A DNA stretch of 44,672 bases, from positions 1 through 44,672 of the forward strand of contig VYGS01000059.1 in the NCBI GenBank assembly GCA_009841725.1. Reading direction: 5' to 3'. Made by a program: the position numbers and the translations under genes. Position 1 is the stretch's first letter; every line of letters starts with the position of its first letter. The notes beneath the pieces are model-generated. The model was not told the DNA's origin and ran no database searches. It worked only from the letters and a program-made list of their open reading frames with translations. Positions 16,918 to 23,626 of this stretch are shown one piece after another. This stretch comes from Gammaproteobacteria bacterium (GTDB taxonomy: Bacteria; Pseudomonadota; Gammaproteobacteria; Arenicellales; Poriferihabitantaceae).

Positions 16918-17145
16918 AGCGGTCTCACAATGTCGAATGGCGCAGATTCGCGAGGCCGATTCCGGTGGGATCACGATCTTCGCTGGTTTTCATCGCCGCA
17001 GAGTATACCCCAACCCAGGCGTCGTTGACGCTCCGGGCAGGACCGAAAGAAGGGAATTGGCAAGATAGGGCCTGCTGGCCAAAACGCTTCCCGACCCCGG
17101 AATCGGTCGAAAAAACTTCTGGAACATGGCGGCCACTTCACTCTT

Positions 17146-17190
17146 TGTTTCACATATAATTCCATGTTTCCATATAATCAGCAGGAAACA
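17146..17190. promoter_or_regulatory. Promoter/operator: tandem TGTTTC(A)CATATAAT repeats and IR TGTTTCC-N12-GGAAACA
   Basis: Direct repeat 17146-17160 / 17165-17178 containing TATAAT twice; 7-bp perfect IR 17165-17171 / 17184-17190 overlapping the second TATAAT. Confidence 0.5.
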
Positions 17191-17207
17191 AGGCAAGAGA
17201 TGACACG

Positions 17208-18020
17208 ATGAACCCACGAGCCCTGAATCCCATGTCAACATCAGAGGTACCCCTGCCCCAGGCGCCTCTGGCACGGGTAATCGCCCAAATACGATTCCCT
17301 TCCATTCTGGCCGTCCACAACCCTGACATGGTCGCGAAATTCCAGGAGAAGCATCGTCATGATTACCCCTTTCTCACTCAGGATCATGTCCATAGCATCG
17401 AACTGGTCGGTGATCAAACACCGAATGTCCACCACGGCATCGTATGGCGCCTCGCGGATCAGGAAAATGCCATTTGGAGGCTGTCTCTGGGGGTGGATTT
17501 CGTTGCCCTTGAAACGTCTTCCTATGACAGTCGAAGCGACTTTCTCAACCGCCTTGATGCCGTTGTTTCCTCCGTTGAGCAGATCTTCAAACCTGTATCG
17601 GCTAGCCGCATCGGGTTGCGCTATATCGACAGGCTAACCGATGGAGCGGTCGATCGAATCGGCGAACTGATCCAGCCAGGCATACTCGGTATAATGAAGC
17701 CTTCTGGAAGCCCCGAGCTCATGCTTGGAGACTCTGTCATTCATCAGATTACGGAGACACAATTTCTGGCTCCAGAAAGTGCCCGGATTCAAGGACGCTG
17801 GGGGCTATTGCCCGCAAACATGACCTACGATCCCGATGCTCTGGAGCCGATCGCCAAGAAGAGCTGGATTTTGGATCTCGACATGTTCAAAATGAAATCC
17901 CATCCCTTTTCCAGCGAAGCGATACTGACAACCACGACCGATTTTGCGGAATGTCTCCATTGGCTCTTTCGCCAAATGGTTACAGAGGAATTCTTGAGAT
18001 TCTACGGAGGATTGCAATGA
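17208..18020 (+). CDS. TIGR04255-family-like protein
   Basis: 270 aa; PLPQAPLARVIAQIRFP N-terminus and ASRIGLRYIDRL motif resemble the sporadically distributed TIGR04255 family. Confidence 0.7.
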   Translation: MNPRALNPMSTSEVPLPQAPLARVIAQIRFPSILAVHNPDMVAKFQEKHRHDYPFLTQDHVHSIELVGDQTPNVHHGIVWRLADQENAIWRLSLGVDFVALETSSYDSRSDFLNRLDAVVSSVEQIFKPVSASRIGLRYIDRLTDGAVDRIGELIQPGILGIMKPSGSPELMLGDSVIHQITETQFLAPESARIQGRWGLLPANMTYDPDALEPIAKKSWILDLDMFKMKSHPFSSEAILTTTTDFAECLHWLFRQMVTEEFLRFYGGLQ

Positions 18021-18688
18021 CCTTGACCTCTCTGAACAGCAGTGCCCAAGACGAGACTTCTGCTTATGGCAGCATGTACCATTCTGGTCATGAAGCCAAA
18101 TCAGCGACTGTGCGGCTTGACACCACCCTGCCGTCTTCGACGACGACCAGCATCTATGAAATCCTCCGATTGATTGAGCGTACTGCCGCCAGCCCAATTG
18201 GACATATTGCGCATGCGAGTACGGAAACCACCGGCGAAGCCATCATGGAAATCCGGCGCCGTTCAGGCTTGACATGGGATGAAATCAGCGCCCTGTTCGA
18301 TGTTTCACGTCGTAGCGTTCATCATTGGGCGAACGGCAAGCCTGTTTCTGCCAGCCATGATCGAATGATCCGCAGAATGCTGGCGGCTATCCGTTACCTT
18401 GATCGAGGTAGCCAATCCGATACCCGTGCAATGCTGTTGGATGTTGATGAGGCAACGGGAACTTCCACCTTCGATCTGTTGGTGAGCGGACGATTCGATG
18501 AGGCAGAGAATCGCATCGAAGGCGTCGGGATTCGCGAATCACGCCGTATACCCCTCTCCCGAACTGATTGGAAGGCCCGCCAACCACAAGAGCCTTTACT
18601 TCTTCTGGAGGCCGAGCAGGATCGATTCGATATTCAGGGCAAGGCGCGTACCGTCACTCCCAAACGAGGGCCCAAGACCGCTGGCTGA
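18017..18688 (+). CDS. HTH (Xre-like) DNA-binding protein
   Basis: Starts at an ATGA overlap with the upstream gene; EAIMEIRRRSGLTWDEISALFDVSRRSVHHWANGKPVSASHDRMIRRML. Confidence 0.75.
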   Translation: MTLTSLNSSAQDETSAYGSMYHSGHEAKSATVRLDTTLPSSTTTSIYEILRLIERTAASPIGHIAHASTETTGEAIMEIRRRSGLTWDEISALFDVSRRSVHHWANGKPVSASHDRMIRRMLAAIRYLDRGSQSDTRAMLLDVDEATGTSTFDLLVSGRFDEAENRIEGVGIRESRRIPLSRTDWKARQPQEPLLLLEAEQDRFDIQGKARTVTPKRGPKTAG

Positions 18689-18694
18689 TGCTTC

Positions 18695-19564
18695 ATGTGT
18701 TTGGAAGAAGAGGATGAACAGACGATCAACAAGGCTCTCCAAGAATGGCGTCAGGGAGATGCCTCACTAGACGATGACCTGGAATTCCTTCATCTCGCCG
18801 ACCTGTCCCGCCCGCACAGCAATGCTTCCATCCAGATTGCCGCATCGCTAAAACACAATGGCGAGACCGTTGAGTCCAAACCCACCCCGGTTCTGCAAGA
18901 AGTATGCGGCATAGCGGTGCTCAGCCAAACTTGTGATATCGTCCGCGGCTGTCGTGAACGTCCATTCCTTGAGGTTGCGCCGCTAGTCGAAGTGGATAAA
19001 CAAACGGTGGAAGAAATCCGCCGTCTTAAGCGCCCTGCCTATGCATATGTCCCGGCCGTTGCCCGTGAGCAACTTGTTGCTGATCTTGATCGCACCATGA
19101 CCGTTGAAAAATCCCTGATTTCGGCGTTGAATCGCATTCCGGGTTGCAAGACCGACGATCAGCGACGGGACTTTGCCCTTGCCTTGGCCCGCAAGAGATC
19201 GCGGTTTCCCTTTCCTGACGATTTCGTCACCGCTGCACGGAAATTTCAGCGCAACATGGTCAAAAAACACGATAGCCAAACCGAAGAGGGCGCCCATCTC
19301 CGGGCAATCGAGGAAATCCGTGTCCGAGCAGCGCCGTCCTGGCATGACGAGGAGGTGGAATTAGAATGGTGGCTGATAAAGGAGCACGACCCAGAAGGTG
19401 TACAAGCTGATTGGCAAACATTCATCGACAAATGGTTTGGCTTGTTTGACAAGACCGGCCGATTCGACTTCGGCATGCCTACCGCTTGCCGACTGGAGGA
19501 CATAACGGCCCGCGATTACGTCGAGAGTGACCGCCTGGATCTTGATCGACTGTCTGTTTCCTGA
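18695..19564 (+). CDS. Uncharacterised protein with SQTCDI motif
   Basis: 289 aa; VCGIAVLSQTCDIVRGCRERPFLEVAPLVEV; starts 6 nt after the HTH gene. Confidence 0.75.
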   Translation: MCLEEEDEQTINKALQEWRQGDASLDDDLEFLHLADLSRPHSNASIQIAASLKHNGETVESKPTPVLQEVCGIAVLSQTCDIVRGCRERPFLEVAPLVEVDKQTVEEIRRLKRPAYAYVPAVAREQLVADLDRTMTVEKSLISALNRIPGCKTDDQRRDFALALARKRSRFPFPDDFVTAARKFQRNMVKKHDSQTEEGAHLRAIEEIRVRAAPSWHDEEVELEWWLIKEHDPEGVQADWQTFIDKWFGLFDKTGRFDFGMPTACRLEDITARDYVESDRLDLDRLSVS

Positions 19565-20167: not shown

Positions 20168-23100
20168 CTATGCGCCGGCATCCGGAAGCGCGCATAGCGC
20201 GTTCACCAGACGCATCTGCTCGATTGTGGTGCAGTGCGTGTGCAAAAGCCGCGGCGATGCGAAAACCAGGCTCAGCCCCTTTCCCCTGCTGACCGCCACA
20301 TTCAGCCGTTCCCGGGACAGCAGGAAGTCCAATCCCCGGGACGTCTCCTCGCAGGACGAGGCGGTCATCGAGACCAGCACGACCGGCGCCTCCTGCCCCT
20401 GGAACTTGTCGACCGTGCCGACACGGATACCGGACAGGGTGTCGGACAACGCGTTGACCTGCGCGTTGTAGGGGGCGACCACCACGATATCGCTCTTGCC
20501 GATCGGACGGCTCCTTCCGTCGCGGTCCGTCCACGCGCCCCCGAGCAGTTTTTCGATCGTACCGCGAACCGCTTCGACCTCTTCCGGGCAGATCTGCGCG
20601 CGGCCCTCGTGAGCGACCGGCACGCGCCAGGCTCCGTGGCAGGGCAGGCCGTCGGCCTCCACGGACTGGACGGCGGTCGAGGGGTGGCTCTTCAGCCGGC
20701 CTTCGTAGAACTGGGACGAGACATAGGCGCACAGCTCGGGATGCATTCTCCAGGTTTCCGGCAAGAAGATGCCGCGGTCCGGCTCGACATTGCGGCCCTC
20801 GCCCAGAATCCAGTCGAGACAGGAGAGATTGGCCGGAGAGGGATGCGCCCCCTGCAGGACCTGCGGAAGCTGCCGGGGATCGCCGATCAGGACAAGGTTG
20901 TCCGCCGCGTTCGACATCGCGACCAGATTGGCCAGCGAAACCTGTCCCGCCTCGTCGACGAACAGATAGTCGAACCCGTCTTCCAGGTCATCGCGCGAAA
21001 ACAGCCATGCCGTGCCTCCGACAACGTGGGCGTCACGGATGGCCGCAGCACGGTTGCCGGTCACGCAGTCGATCGCCGAGAGGACCTTTTCGGGAAGATT
21101 CGCGCCACTTGGAACCTTGTGGGCGAGGCGCACTTCGTCGGCGGACAGGCCGCAGTCCCCCGCCCGAAGGGCCTCGGCGCATCCCATCAGCACATTGCGT
21201 ATGGCCTCGTGACTGTTCGAGGACACCGCGATCCGCTTGCCGTCCCGAACCAGCGCGAGGATCGCCCGCGCCGTGACATGGGTCTTGCCGGTCCCGGGAG
21301 GTCCCTGGACAGGCAGGACCGACCGGTCCATCGCCCGCACGGCCCGGATCGTGCCGTCGAGCGCGTCGCCGCCCTCCTCCAGAGGCAGCGGAGACGGACC
21401 GCGGAACCGGGGAGGGTTCCGCGAGAGAAGGTCTTCGGCGGCCCGGTTGGACCCAGAGCCGCATTGGTCCTCGATCACTTTGCGGATGGCTGCGGGAATC
21501 GGATCCGGGCGCAGCGCAAAACCGGGAAGAAGGTCCAGGGTGTCGGGGAGACGGACATCCCGAGCGAACCCGATCTTCAGGGAGGCCCGCCTGCCGCCTC
21601 GGTCGAGCCCGGAGATTTGAACGGTCGTGAATCCGCCCTCCCTGGCGAAGAGCGCGTCGCTCCCCTTTCTCAGTTTCGTTTCCTGAGGCGGAAAGACGTA
21701 GTCGCGCCCGATCGACTGTTTCACCGGATACGGGCCTCCGGCCGCAACCAGTCCGGCCAGGCAGTCCATGTCGTCGGCCAGATCCTCGAAGTCCTTCGCG
21801 GCGGCGTCGAACACGGCCCAGGCCTGGGGCTTGCTCTCGCGCCAGTGGAACACCCCCAGGTCGTACAGCATCTGCCGGCGCTCCGGGGACAGGCCAGAGG
21901 CCTCGAGAAGATCGGCCAGTTCGCTGTTTTCGATCTGCTGCGCCTTCGATTTCTCCGTCTCGCCCTCGCCGATCTCGCGCCACGGGCCCTCGGGGCGAAT
22001 CCCGACCAGCCAGTTGCGCAGCCGCTCGAGGGAGATGCAGTCGATGCGGTTGTAATCCTCGATCTCCGGGAGAATGCCGGCATCGCCGGACTCCCTCCAC
22101 TTCTCGTACGCCACGATCGAGCCGCCGGCCGTCACCACCTCCCCCTCGCGGTCCATGTCGTAAAACGCCTCCATGTCCTTCAGGGAGTAGGAGGGCTCGG
22201 ATGCGAGAAGTCCTCCTCGAACCACTGCGTACAGGTCCACGAACCGCCGCTCCCGCAGCCAGCGGTCGAGTTGCGCCTCCCCCGTCCCGTGCCGCGTGGC
22301 GAGCCTTCTCAGCGCAGTGATCTCGTAGGGCGCGTAATGGTAGACGTGCGCGCCGGGATGTTCCCTGAAGTGCGCTTCGAACAGGTCGACGAGACCGGCC
22401 AGGGCCCGCTTCTCCTGCGCACAGTCGTGCGCCCACAGGGCGGTGAATTCCCGCCCGTCCCAAACGCCCTGAAGGTATTCGAGGCCCTCGGATCCGGCTT
22501 CGGCATAGAAGGGGTCGCCCTCGATGTCGTAGAAGAGGTCCCCGGGGTCCGGGCGCGGCAGCAGGTCGAAACCCTTGCCGGGAACCGGGGTGCGCAGCTC
22601 CCAGGCGGGATCGCCCGTCTTTCGGGCCGTCTGCAGCCGCGCCTGGGCCCGCAGCTTTTCGGCTGTCGAGCCAGCCAGCCCGGGGACGCGCCCCCGGTGC
22701 CCGGCCAGGGCACCCAGAGTCCCGATCCCGGCGGCCTCGAGCCTGGCGACCTGGCTTCGGGTAATGCCCGCGGCGAGATAGAGGCTGTCCGACTCCCGCC
22801 ATTCATCGGCGCACCGCACCCGCCAGCTGCAGAGATCGCAAAACGAGCAGGGAACGGGCCGGGTATCGGCCGGGTCTTGCACAAAATGCTCGAGGCGCTC
22901 GCGCAACAGGCGCGCGCAGTCGGCGTATTCGGAAAGCCGGAAACTGGCCCGCTCTCCCGTGCCGAGCAGCACATGGGCCCGCTCGGGCGCGCGGCCCTGA
23001 AGATCCGCAAGCAACTCCGAGTAGAGCAGCAGCTGGAGCATATGGCTCGGAGCCGGCTTCCGCTTGAGCTTGGTGTCCACGATCTCGTAGGAGAACGCGC

Positions 23101-23476
23101 CCAGATCGGAGGGGACCGGCACGCGCTCGATGAAGTCCGCGTACCCGCCCCACATTCCGCCGGCGAGCGCACCCTGAAAGACGATGTCGGGCCCGGCGCC
23201 AAGCGCGTCCCGCGTGGCGCTCACCGACTCCGCAAAGGGCACGCTGTCCGTTTCGATCCGGACCACCCGCCGGCCTTCGTCCTCGAGACGGCGAAGATAG
23301 TCGGCCTCATGCCGGTCGCCATGCCTTTGCAGCAAGGCGGCTTCCTCGCTGTCGCCGGCGGGAACCAGCGCCTCGCCCTGAAGGCGGGCCAGATCCAGCC
23401 GGACCGAATGCGGGCATGCCGCGAAGCGCATGAGATCGGTTGCCGACAACCGGATCCCTTCCTGATCCCGTCTCAT
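20168..23476 (-). CDS. TM0106-type RecB-like nuclease / RNase H-like exonuclease / SF1 helicase fusion
   Basis: ~1102 aa; N-terminal YEIVDTKLKRKP...MLQLLLYSELL and CSFCDLCSWRVRC; middle FYDIEGDPFY...YNRIDC; C-terminal VQGPPGTGKTHV, VDEAGQVSLANL, GDPRQLPQ, VDKFQGQEAPVVLVSM. Confidence 0.85.
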   Translation of the reverse strand: MRRDQEGIRLSATDLMRFAACPHSVRLDLARLQGEALVPAGDSEEAALLQRHGDRHEADYLRRLEDEGRRVVRIETDSVPFAESVSATRDALGAGPDIVFQGALAGGMWGGYADFIERVPVPSDLGAFSYEIVDTKLKRKPAPSHMLQLLLYSELLADLQGRAPERAHVLLGTGERASFRLSEYADCARLLRERLEHFVQDPADTRPVPCSFCDLCSWRVRCADEWRESDSLYLAAGITRSQVARLEAAGIGTLGALAGHRGRVPGLAGSTAEKLRAQARLQTARKTGDPAWELRTPVPGKGFDLLPRPDPGDLFYDIEGDPFYAEAGSEGLEYLQGVWDGREFTALWAHDCAQEKRALAGLVDLFEAHFREHPGAHVYHYAPYEITALRRLATRHGTGEAQLDRWLRERRFVDLYAVVRGGLLASEPSYSLKDMEAFYDMDREGEVVTAGGSIVAYEKWRESGDAGILPEIEDYNRIDCISLERLRNWLVGIRPEGPWREIGEGETEKSKAQQIENSELADLLEASGLSPERRQMLYDLGVFHWRESKPQAWAVFDAAAKDFEDLADDMDCLAGLVAAGGPYPVKQSIGRDYVFPPQETKLRKGSDALFAREGGFTTVQISGLDRGGRRASLKIGFARDVRLPDTLDLLPGFALRPDPIPAAIRKVIEDQCGSGSNRAAEDLLSRNPPRFRGPSPLPLEEGGDALDGTIRAVRAMDRSVLPVQGPPGTGKTHVTARAILALVRDGKRIAVSSNSHEAIRNVLMGCAEALRAGDCGLSADEVRLAHKVPSGANLPEKVLSAIDCVTGNRAAAIRDAHVVGGTAWLFSRDDLEDGFDYLFVDEAGQVSLANLVAMSNAADNLVLIGDPRQLPQVLQGAHPSPANLSCLDWILGEGRNVEPDRGIFLPETWRMHPELCAYVSSQFYEGRLKSHPSTAVQSVEADGLPCHGAWRVPVAHEGRAQICPEEVEAVRGTIEKLLGGAWTDRDGRSRPIGKSDIVVVAPYNAQVNALSDTLSGIRVGTVDKFQGQEAPVVLVSMTASSCEETSRGLDFLLSRERLNVAVSRGKGLSLVFASPRLLHTHCTTIEQMRLVNALCALPDAGA

Positions 23477-23626
23477 CGAACCGTTTCCGTATGACTCTCC
23501 CTTCCGCCCACAGGCGGGCCATTGCGGCCCGGCCATTCGTGCGTCGCGGCGGGACGAGCGGGAGGAATCGTCATTCGGAATCCTCCGCGCTCGCGCATCT
23601 AGCCAGCCCCGTCTCGGGGACCGGCC

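Follow-up and report, generated by a model that had tools for sequence, protein, structure and literature searches.

A candidate mobile, self-regulated three-gene toxin-antitoxin-type cassette headed by a TIGR04255 family protein in a gammaproteobacterial genome

Introduction

HipBST and TAC, the latter consisting of HigBA with a SecB-like chaperone, are three-gene toxin-antitoxin systems. The three genes of TAC are co-transcribed, and its HTH antitoxin needs a dedicated SecB-like chaperone (PMC9098466). A third component of this kind can pair with different toxin-antitoxin types. In the two-gene MazEF/PemIK systems, the antitoxin gene precedes the toxin gene in an autoregulated operon, and the toxin, MazF, is a protein of about 110 aa with the catalytic residues Arg25 and Thr48 (PMC7354611). 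MbcTA of Mycobacterium tuberculosis is of the Xre-RES type, in which the antitoxin consists of an HTH domain followed by a toxin-binding C-terminal domain. Type II systems in general are recognized by co-directional, adjacent antitoxin and toxin genes that are conserved jointly, by autoregulation through the antitoxin, and by a toxin that can be lost without the antitoxin but not the reverse.

Here, we compare with these systems a three-gene cassette found in a stretch of 44,672 nucleotides (hereafter, the window) from a gammaproteobacterial genome of 2.6 Mb in 168 contigs. The initial annotation, made from the sequence alone, saw in the cassette a candidate defence, abortive-infection or toxin-antitoxin-like unit, and our results support a toxin-antitoxin-like nature, given the MbcA-like domain of gene 2, the operator covarying with it, the MazF-like fold of gene 3, and the one-sided decay of the cassette. 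Together with the conserved gene order and the signs of mobility, these computed features lead us to a probability of roughly two in three that the cassette is an undescribed mobile, self-regulated, three-component toxin-antitoxin-type unit.

Results

The cassette, its upstream elements and its downstream neighbors are located in the window as follows.

17137-17154, forward strand: tandem operator TTCACT-CTTTGT-TTCACA (consensus TTCACA-N6-TTCACA, 12-bp period)
17146-17160: repeat TGTTTCACATATAAT, read from the sequence
17149-17178, forward strand: probable sigma-70-type promoter, TTCACA (17149-17154), 18 bp, TATAAT (17173-17178)
17165-17178: repeat TGTTTCCATATAAT, read from the sequence
17165-17190, forward strand: inverted repeat TGTTTCC-N12-GGAAACA
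17208-18020, forward strand: gene 1, TIGR04255 family protein, 270 aa
18017-18688, forward strand: gene 2, HTH protein with an MbcA-like C-terminal domain, 223 aa
18695-19564, forward strand: gene 3, QGD/QTCD protein, 289 aa
19733-19981, downstream of the cassette: truncated HicB-like ORF, 82 aa (PF15919, 30.5 bits)
20168-23536, reverse strand: convergent nuclease-helicase, 1122 aa, with RNase_H_2 and AAA_11/AAA_12 domains

The layout is that given in the initial annotation, with three co-directional ORFs of which genes 1 and 2 share an ATGA overlap (18017-18020) and genes 2 and 3 are separated by a 6-nt gap. The AT-richer patch that it noted is also real, the GC content being 53.4% in the cassette versus 62.1% in the window, within the lowest 1% of 2.4-kb stretches, and all of the TGTTTC repeats and the inverted repeat that it placed upstream were located. 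The HicB remnant and the nuclease-helicase indeed lie downstream, but their membership of the cassette finds no support, given that the nuclease-helicase is present, at 78% identity, in a congener without an adjoining cassette. No obvious HicA partner of the solo HicB-like ORF was seen in the short gaps beside it, and the nuclease-helicase matches the PADLOC MkoA/MkoC helicase models, probably via the common helicase domain. None of the three cassette genes matched a PADLOC 2.0.0 family at E-values up to 1.

An alignment query with gene 3 recovered 69 genome loci, in most of which the trio is adjacent and in order, and, from the viral collection, three contigs. Scans of both collections with the single gene 3 protein had come back empty, the peptide patterns being over-specific. 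No gene 3 homolog was found in phage records. All three genes are intact, in the order TIGR04255 protein, HTH protein, QTCD protein, in 55 of 78 non-redundant loci, and a profile scan of these 78 loci found the genes to be adjacent in most of the intact cassettes. Searches with tblastn identified gene 3 homologs on plasmids of Chroococcidiopsis, Sphingomonas, Rhizobium, Sinorhizobium, Kocuria, Paenarthrobacter and Streptomyces, preceded in all except Streptomyces by the TIGR04255 and HTH genes in the same order. The locus titles span Pseudomonadota, Cyanobacteriota, Planctomycetota, Acidobacteriota, Myxococcota, Actinomycetota, Gemmatimonadota and others, although several loci come from MAGs, for which single phylum labels may reflect binning errors; isolates and complete plasmids alone cover cyanobacteria, alphaproteobacteria and actinobacteria. 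The proposal of a coherent unit was to fall if genes 1 and 3 were not neighbors in other genomes, and the trio is in fact adjacent, in the same order, in very distant bacteria. The distribution is sporadic, as had been suggested, with the cassette present in 6 of 109 genomes of the order and 3 of 399 genomes of the phylum. Pairwise divergence is strongly correlated among the three genes, most closely between genes 2 and 3 (Mantel r 0.87), followed by genes 1 and 2 (0.81) and genes 1 and 3 (0.79; p 0.001). Genes 2 and 3 thus form a jointly conserved, co-directional and adjacent pair, as in type II systems.

Gene 3 had no meaningful match in Pfam, NCBIfam, PADLOC or PHROGs, the MazF/PemK family PF02452 matched neither gene 3 nor any of its 56 homologs, and comparison with a small PemK/MazF profile detected no sequence homology to these toxins. 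Ahead of any structural model, the order of its motifs (GD, a hydrophobic strand, PL and DLxRxxTVxK) hinted at a MazF-like barrel. The AlphaFold2 model built from 56 sequences (pLDDT 94.2) was then compared by Foldseek with the PDB, following the test proposed in the initial annotation, and the three top matches were MazF toxins, namely those of B. subtilis (probability 0.99), M. tuberculosis (MazF-mt1, 0.96) and E. coli (0.82), with the non-MazF proteins among the matches listed reaching 0.54 or less. Nothing useful for gene 3 was found in the viral structure library. The best MazF match has a Foldseek E-value of 0.022 and a TM-score on target of 0.56, and covers about 100 of the 289 residues, so that the similarity is claimed at the level of the fold only. 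Among the 56 homologs, G21, D22, Q78, C80 and P174 are invariant, and W18, Q20, D81, D130, K139 and R209 are nearly so. With places assigned from the motif order, the 56 sequences have neither a conserved Arg before the strand at 73-77 nor a Thr after PL96-97, where the catalytic Arg25 and Thr48 of MazF would be expected; the chemistry of gene 3 may thus differ, or the fold may be put to another use. In length and in its QGD...QTCD signature, gene 3 is unlike MazF; the MazF-like core fold and the position behind a candidate antitoxin gene in a very probably autoregulated operon are as in MazEF/PemIK. Gene 3 is the probable toxin.

Gene 2 alone yielded only weak HTH matches. A profile of 50 gene 2 proteins, however, matched MbcA (Rv1990c, 6fkg_C) with an E-value of 1.3e-6 over both the HTH and the C-terminal domain, that is, the architecture of Xre/MbcA/ParS-type antitoxins, with other antitoxins matched more weakly. 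The Pfam Xre-like-HTH model gave a weak match in 26 of the 50 members, and neither a C-terminal Pfam model nor PF09722-type models matched any of them. Gene 2 is akin to MbcA rather than to MazE. A difference from MbcTA is that gene 3 has no match to the RES toxin family in Pfam.

Of the 70 loci scanned, 41 have the tandem operator upstream of gene 1 in exact form, and 55 have it when one mismatch is allowed, compared with 0.24% of shuffled sequences at the latter threshold. A scan with an 11-bp period failed, and a table of pair distances gave the period of 12. The second half of the operator coincides with the TTCACA of the probable promoter; in three loci, the pair of repeats lies on the opposite strand, which marks it as an operator rather than simply a -35 box. 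This conserved element is not one of the repeats listed in the initial annotation, although it overlaps the first TGTTTC repeat, and the inverted repeat of the window was seen in none of the upstream regions of relatives that were inspected. The type of operator follows the recognition helix of gene 2: C[TS]RQ helices go with TTTAC in 7 of 7 cases, compared with 1 of 63 for other helices, and NVDRRT helices go with TTCCCA repeats in 3 of 3, the loci being partly related and the covariation in part limited to related clades, so that independence is overstated by the Fisher values. Because the operator covaries with its recognition helix, gene 2 is very probably the autorepressor of the operon, and with its MbcA-like domain it is a probable antitoxin, as the initial annotation had supposed in naming it a candidate autoregulator or antitoxin. 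In the genome of the window, a degenerate operator pattern has three zero-mismatch sites, one of them at the cassette, and 11 sites with one mismatch versus 3 for a reversed-pattern control, which lends no support to a genome-wide regulon.

The cassette decays in one direction. Genes 1 and 2 are intact, and gene 3 alone is disrupted by a stop codon, a frameshift, an insertion or a truncation, in at least seven loci that do not lie at contig ends (L030, L040, L050, L066, L080, L085 and L089), and among the 78 non-redundant loci there is none, away from contig ends, with an intact gene 3 and a lost gene 2. The sign test on this small sample gives 7:0 (p 0.016). The loci were gathered by gene 3, so that sampling favors the reverse case, in which gene 2 is lost, and yet none was seen. 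All three orphan copies of gene 3 (L087, L088 and L090) are broken, one intact gene 3 sits beside one broken and one intact gene 2 (L054), and in a locus that has no gene 1 (L027), gene 3 is intact and gene 2 retains its HTH/MbcA part. The candidate toxin gene is thus lost without the candidate antitoxin gene but not the other way around, the pattern expected of a type II pair.

Comparison of the flanks and the plasmid and integrase context bear out the earlier view of the cassette as a mobile unit. The flanking redoxin gene is about 80% identical in congeners that have no adjoining cassette, resolvases, phage integrases, a CI-type repressor and a serine integrase are among the nearest neighbors at other loci, and cassettes reside on conjugative and mobilizable plasmids. 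A congener, genome G009, carries three different copies, one of them frameshifted. In a further locus from a congener (L006), the cassette has decayed through a deletion: gene 2 is gone together with the QGD/QTCD part, and the first half of gene 1 runs in frame into what is left of gene 3.

Gene 1 belongs to NCBIfam TIGR04255, as the initial annotation had surmised, the HMM search giving an E-value of 3.9e-37 and 128.4 bits against a curated cut-off of 30, over positions 2-249 of 252. Membership in the family says nothing of the operon logic seen here. The AlphaFold2 model (pLDDT 94.8) has weak matches to AdoMetDC and TBP-like folds. A search of open-access journal papers returned none that names TIGR04255. 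The family is not specific to this trio: it is present in 30 of the 399 genomes of the phylum, compared with 3 for gene 3, and most of the other members stand first in operons of three genes whose remaining two are of other kinds. In five loci (L118, L121, L126, L128 and L143), these two encode a divergent HTH protein and a QxCx protein, and in four others (L119, L122, L130 and L134) a small protein and an SNTCD/SNSCD protein with QGD and LSN[TS]CD motifs, which is probably a distant relative of gene 3. A third set (L115, L125, L129, L137-L140 and L142) combines TIGR04255 with a protein of 165-240 aa bearing a W-D-G-Y type motif and a last gene of 137-183 aa; the pair in L142 had no Pfam match. 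The TIGR04255 operons of L116 and L117 end in a gene of 214-233 aa with HVGIIY, CHLAWH and LTCATF motifs, which in L117 was unmatched in Pfam. The last gene of the L136 operon encodes 125 aa with the motif RAYYAALLNS; it looked HEPN-like by eye, a candidate we set aside as neither Pfam nor PADLOC gave a match.

The TIGR04255 gene of L120 has a PemI-like ORF within 1-2 nt of its end, and next comes an overlapping gene for a genuine PemK (PF02452, E 1.1e-18). This operon begins 4-5 nt past a gene that resembles PglZ by eye (L120/L166, G289:C94), and it lies in a defence-type run of genes with matches to a DUF1156/HmaB-type methylase and an HEC-01A-type ATPase. L120 is our best hint that TIGR04255 may work with toxin-antitoxin pairs in general. 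On a Streptomyces plasmid (L015), a gene 3 relative with an ILTQDCDL motif comes after an HTH gene of another, MerR-like kind, and a TIGR04255 gene was not found at this locus, which suggests that genes 2 and 3 are the core of the system.

Discussion

Could the cassette be an ordinary metabolic or regulatory operon, with no toxin-antitoxin unit in it? The lack of a function for gene 3 in the domain and protein family collections would be consistent with that, but autoregulation, one-sided loss of gene 3, mobility, a MazF-like fold and an MbcA-like domain would be hard to reconcile with it in combination, and we consider it very improbable. A toxin-antitoxin unit of the TAC kind would share with our preferred reading the three genes, the HTH antitoxin and the dedicated third component; in addition, gene 1 would act as a SecB-type chaperone holding a hydrophobic stretch of gene 2, which would then fold and block gene 3. 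One constant third protein serving exchangeable toxin-antitoxin pairs follows the same logic, the antitoxin of TAC depends on its chaperone, and many gene 2 proteins do have a hydrophobic N-terminal stretch. Such a stretch is, however, no general trait of gene 2, only 18% of the homologs being more hydrophobic than their own shuffled sequences, and the gene 2 of the window has none (maximum hydropathy 0.38). SecB is also absent among the 50 listed PDB matches of the gene 1 model, and the gene order, with TIGR04255 heading the operon, is unlike that of TAC. With no SecB among these listed matches and no hydrophobic stretch in the gene 2 of the window, a chaperone mechanism appears improbable.

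The two remaining alternatives concern the benefit of the cassette, for which plasmid addiction and defence stand as equal alternatives. In anti-phage abortive infection, TIGR04255 would sense a phage product and the toxin would kill or arrest the cell, the toxin-antitoxin-like behavior being the resting state. The sporadic occurrence of the cassette would fit such a role, which is also suggested by neighbors matching PADLOC models in some loci (type I and III methylases, MADS, PglW and IetA) and by the company of the TIGR04255-PemK operon; against it, many loci adjoin ordinary metabolic genes, and the trio itself matches no PADLOC model. We regard this possibility as open to serious consideration, at somewhat less than even odds. 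A stability (addiction) module of plasmids or genomic islands, with no role in defence, would account for the cassettes on conjugative and mobilizable plasmids, for those adjoining integrases and resolvases, and for the multiple decaying copies within genome G009, but it leaves unexplained why the shared third component is retained and why TIGR04255 heads other trios, and it seems rather unlikely.

Under the preferred reading, that of a three-component toxin-antitoxin-type unit, gene 2 would bind the two direct TTCACA repeats through its HTH domain and repress the operon and, alone or with gene 1, would neutralize gene 3, a task that probably falls to the MbcA-like C-terminal domain. As the toxin, gene 3 would have a MazF-like barrel at its core, with QGD...QTCD in place of the MazF catalytic pair and with RNA as a first guess at its target. 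Gene 1 would be the component with exchangeable partners, most likely a sensor of the trigger or a stabilizer of the antitoxin, such that a disturbance of gene 1 would free gene 3 and bring about growth arrest. By extension, and more tentatively, TIGR04255 proteins could act as the shared sensor throughout a large, so far undescribed class of defence or toxin-antitoxin systems with three genes each, the second and third being exchanged from one system to the next (HTH with QTCD, small protein with SNTCD, WDGY with its partner, PemI-like with PemK, and others). Gene 3 would then be a toxin of the MazF fold whose active site is new; we would put this at below an even chance.

Conclusion

The HTH antitoxin, the MazF-like fold and the three-gene toxin-antitoxin system are all known kinds, whereas the system as a whole is absent from PADLOC and gene 3 falls in no Pfam family. 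If our reading is correct, the known toxin-antitoxin-like systems gain a tripartite member, whose MazF-shaped toxin does without the usual catalytic pair and which has an operator of its own across distant bacteria. The TIGR04255 family, so far annotated only as 'sporadically distributed, unknown function', becomes testable as the head of compact toxin-antitoxin-like three-gene operons, and it would then serve as a search handle for further undescribed toxin or defence operons, forming a larger class if the sensor is indeed shared among them.
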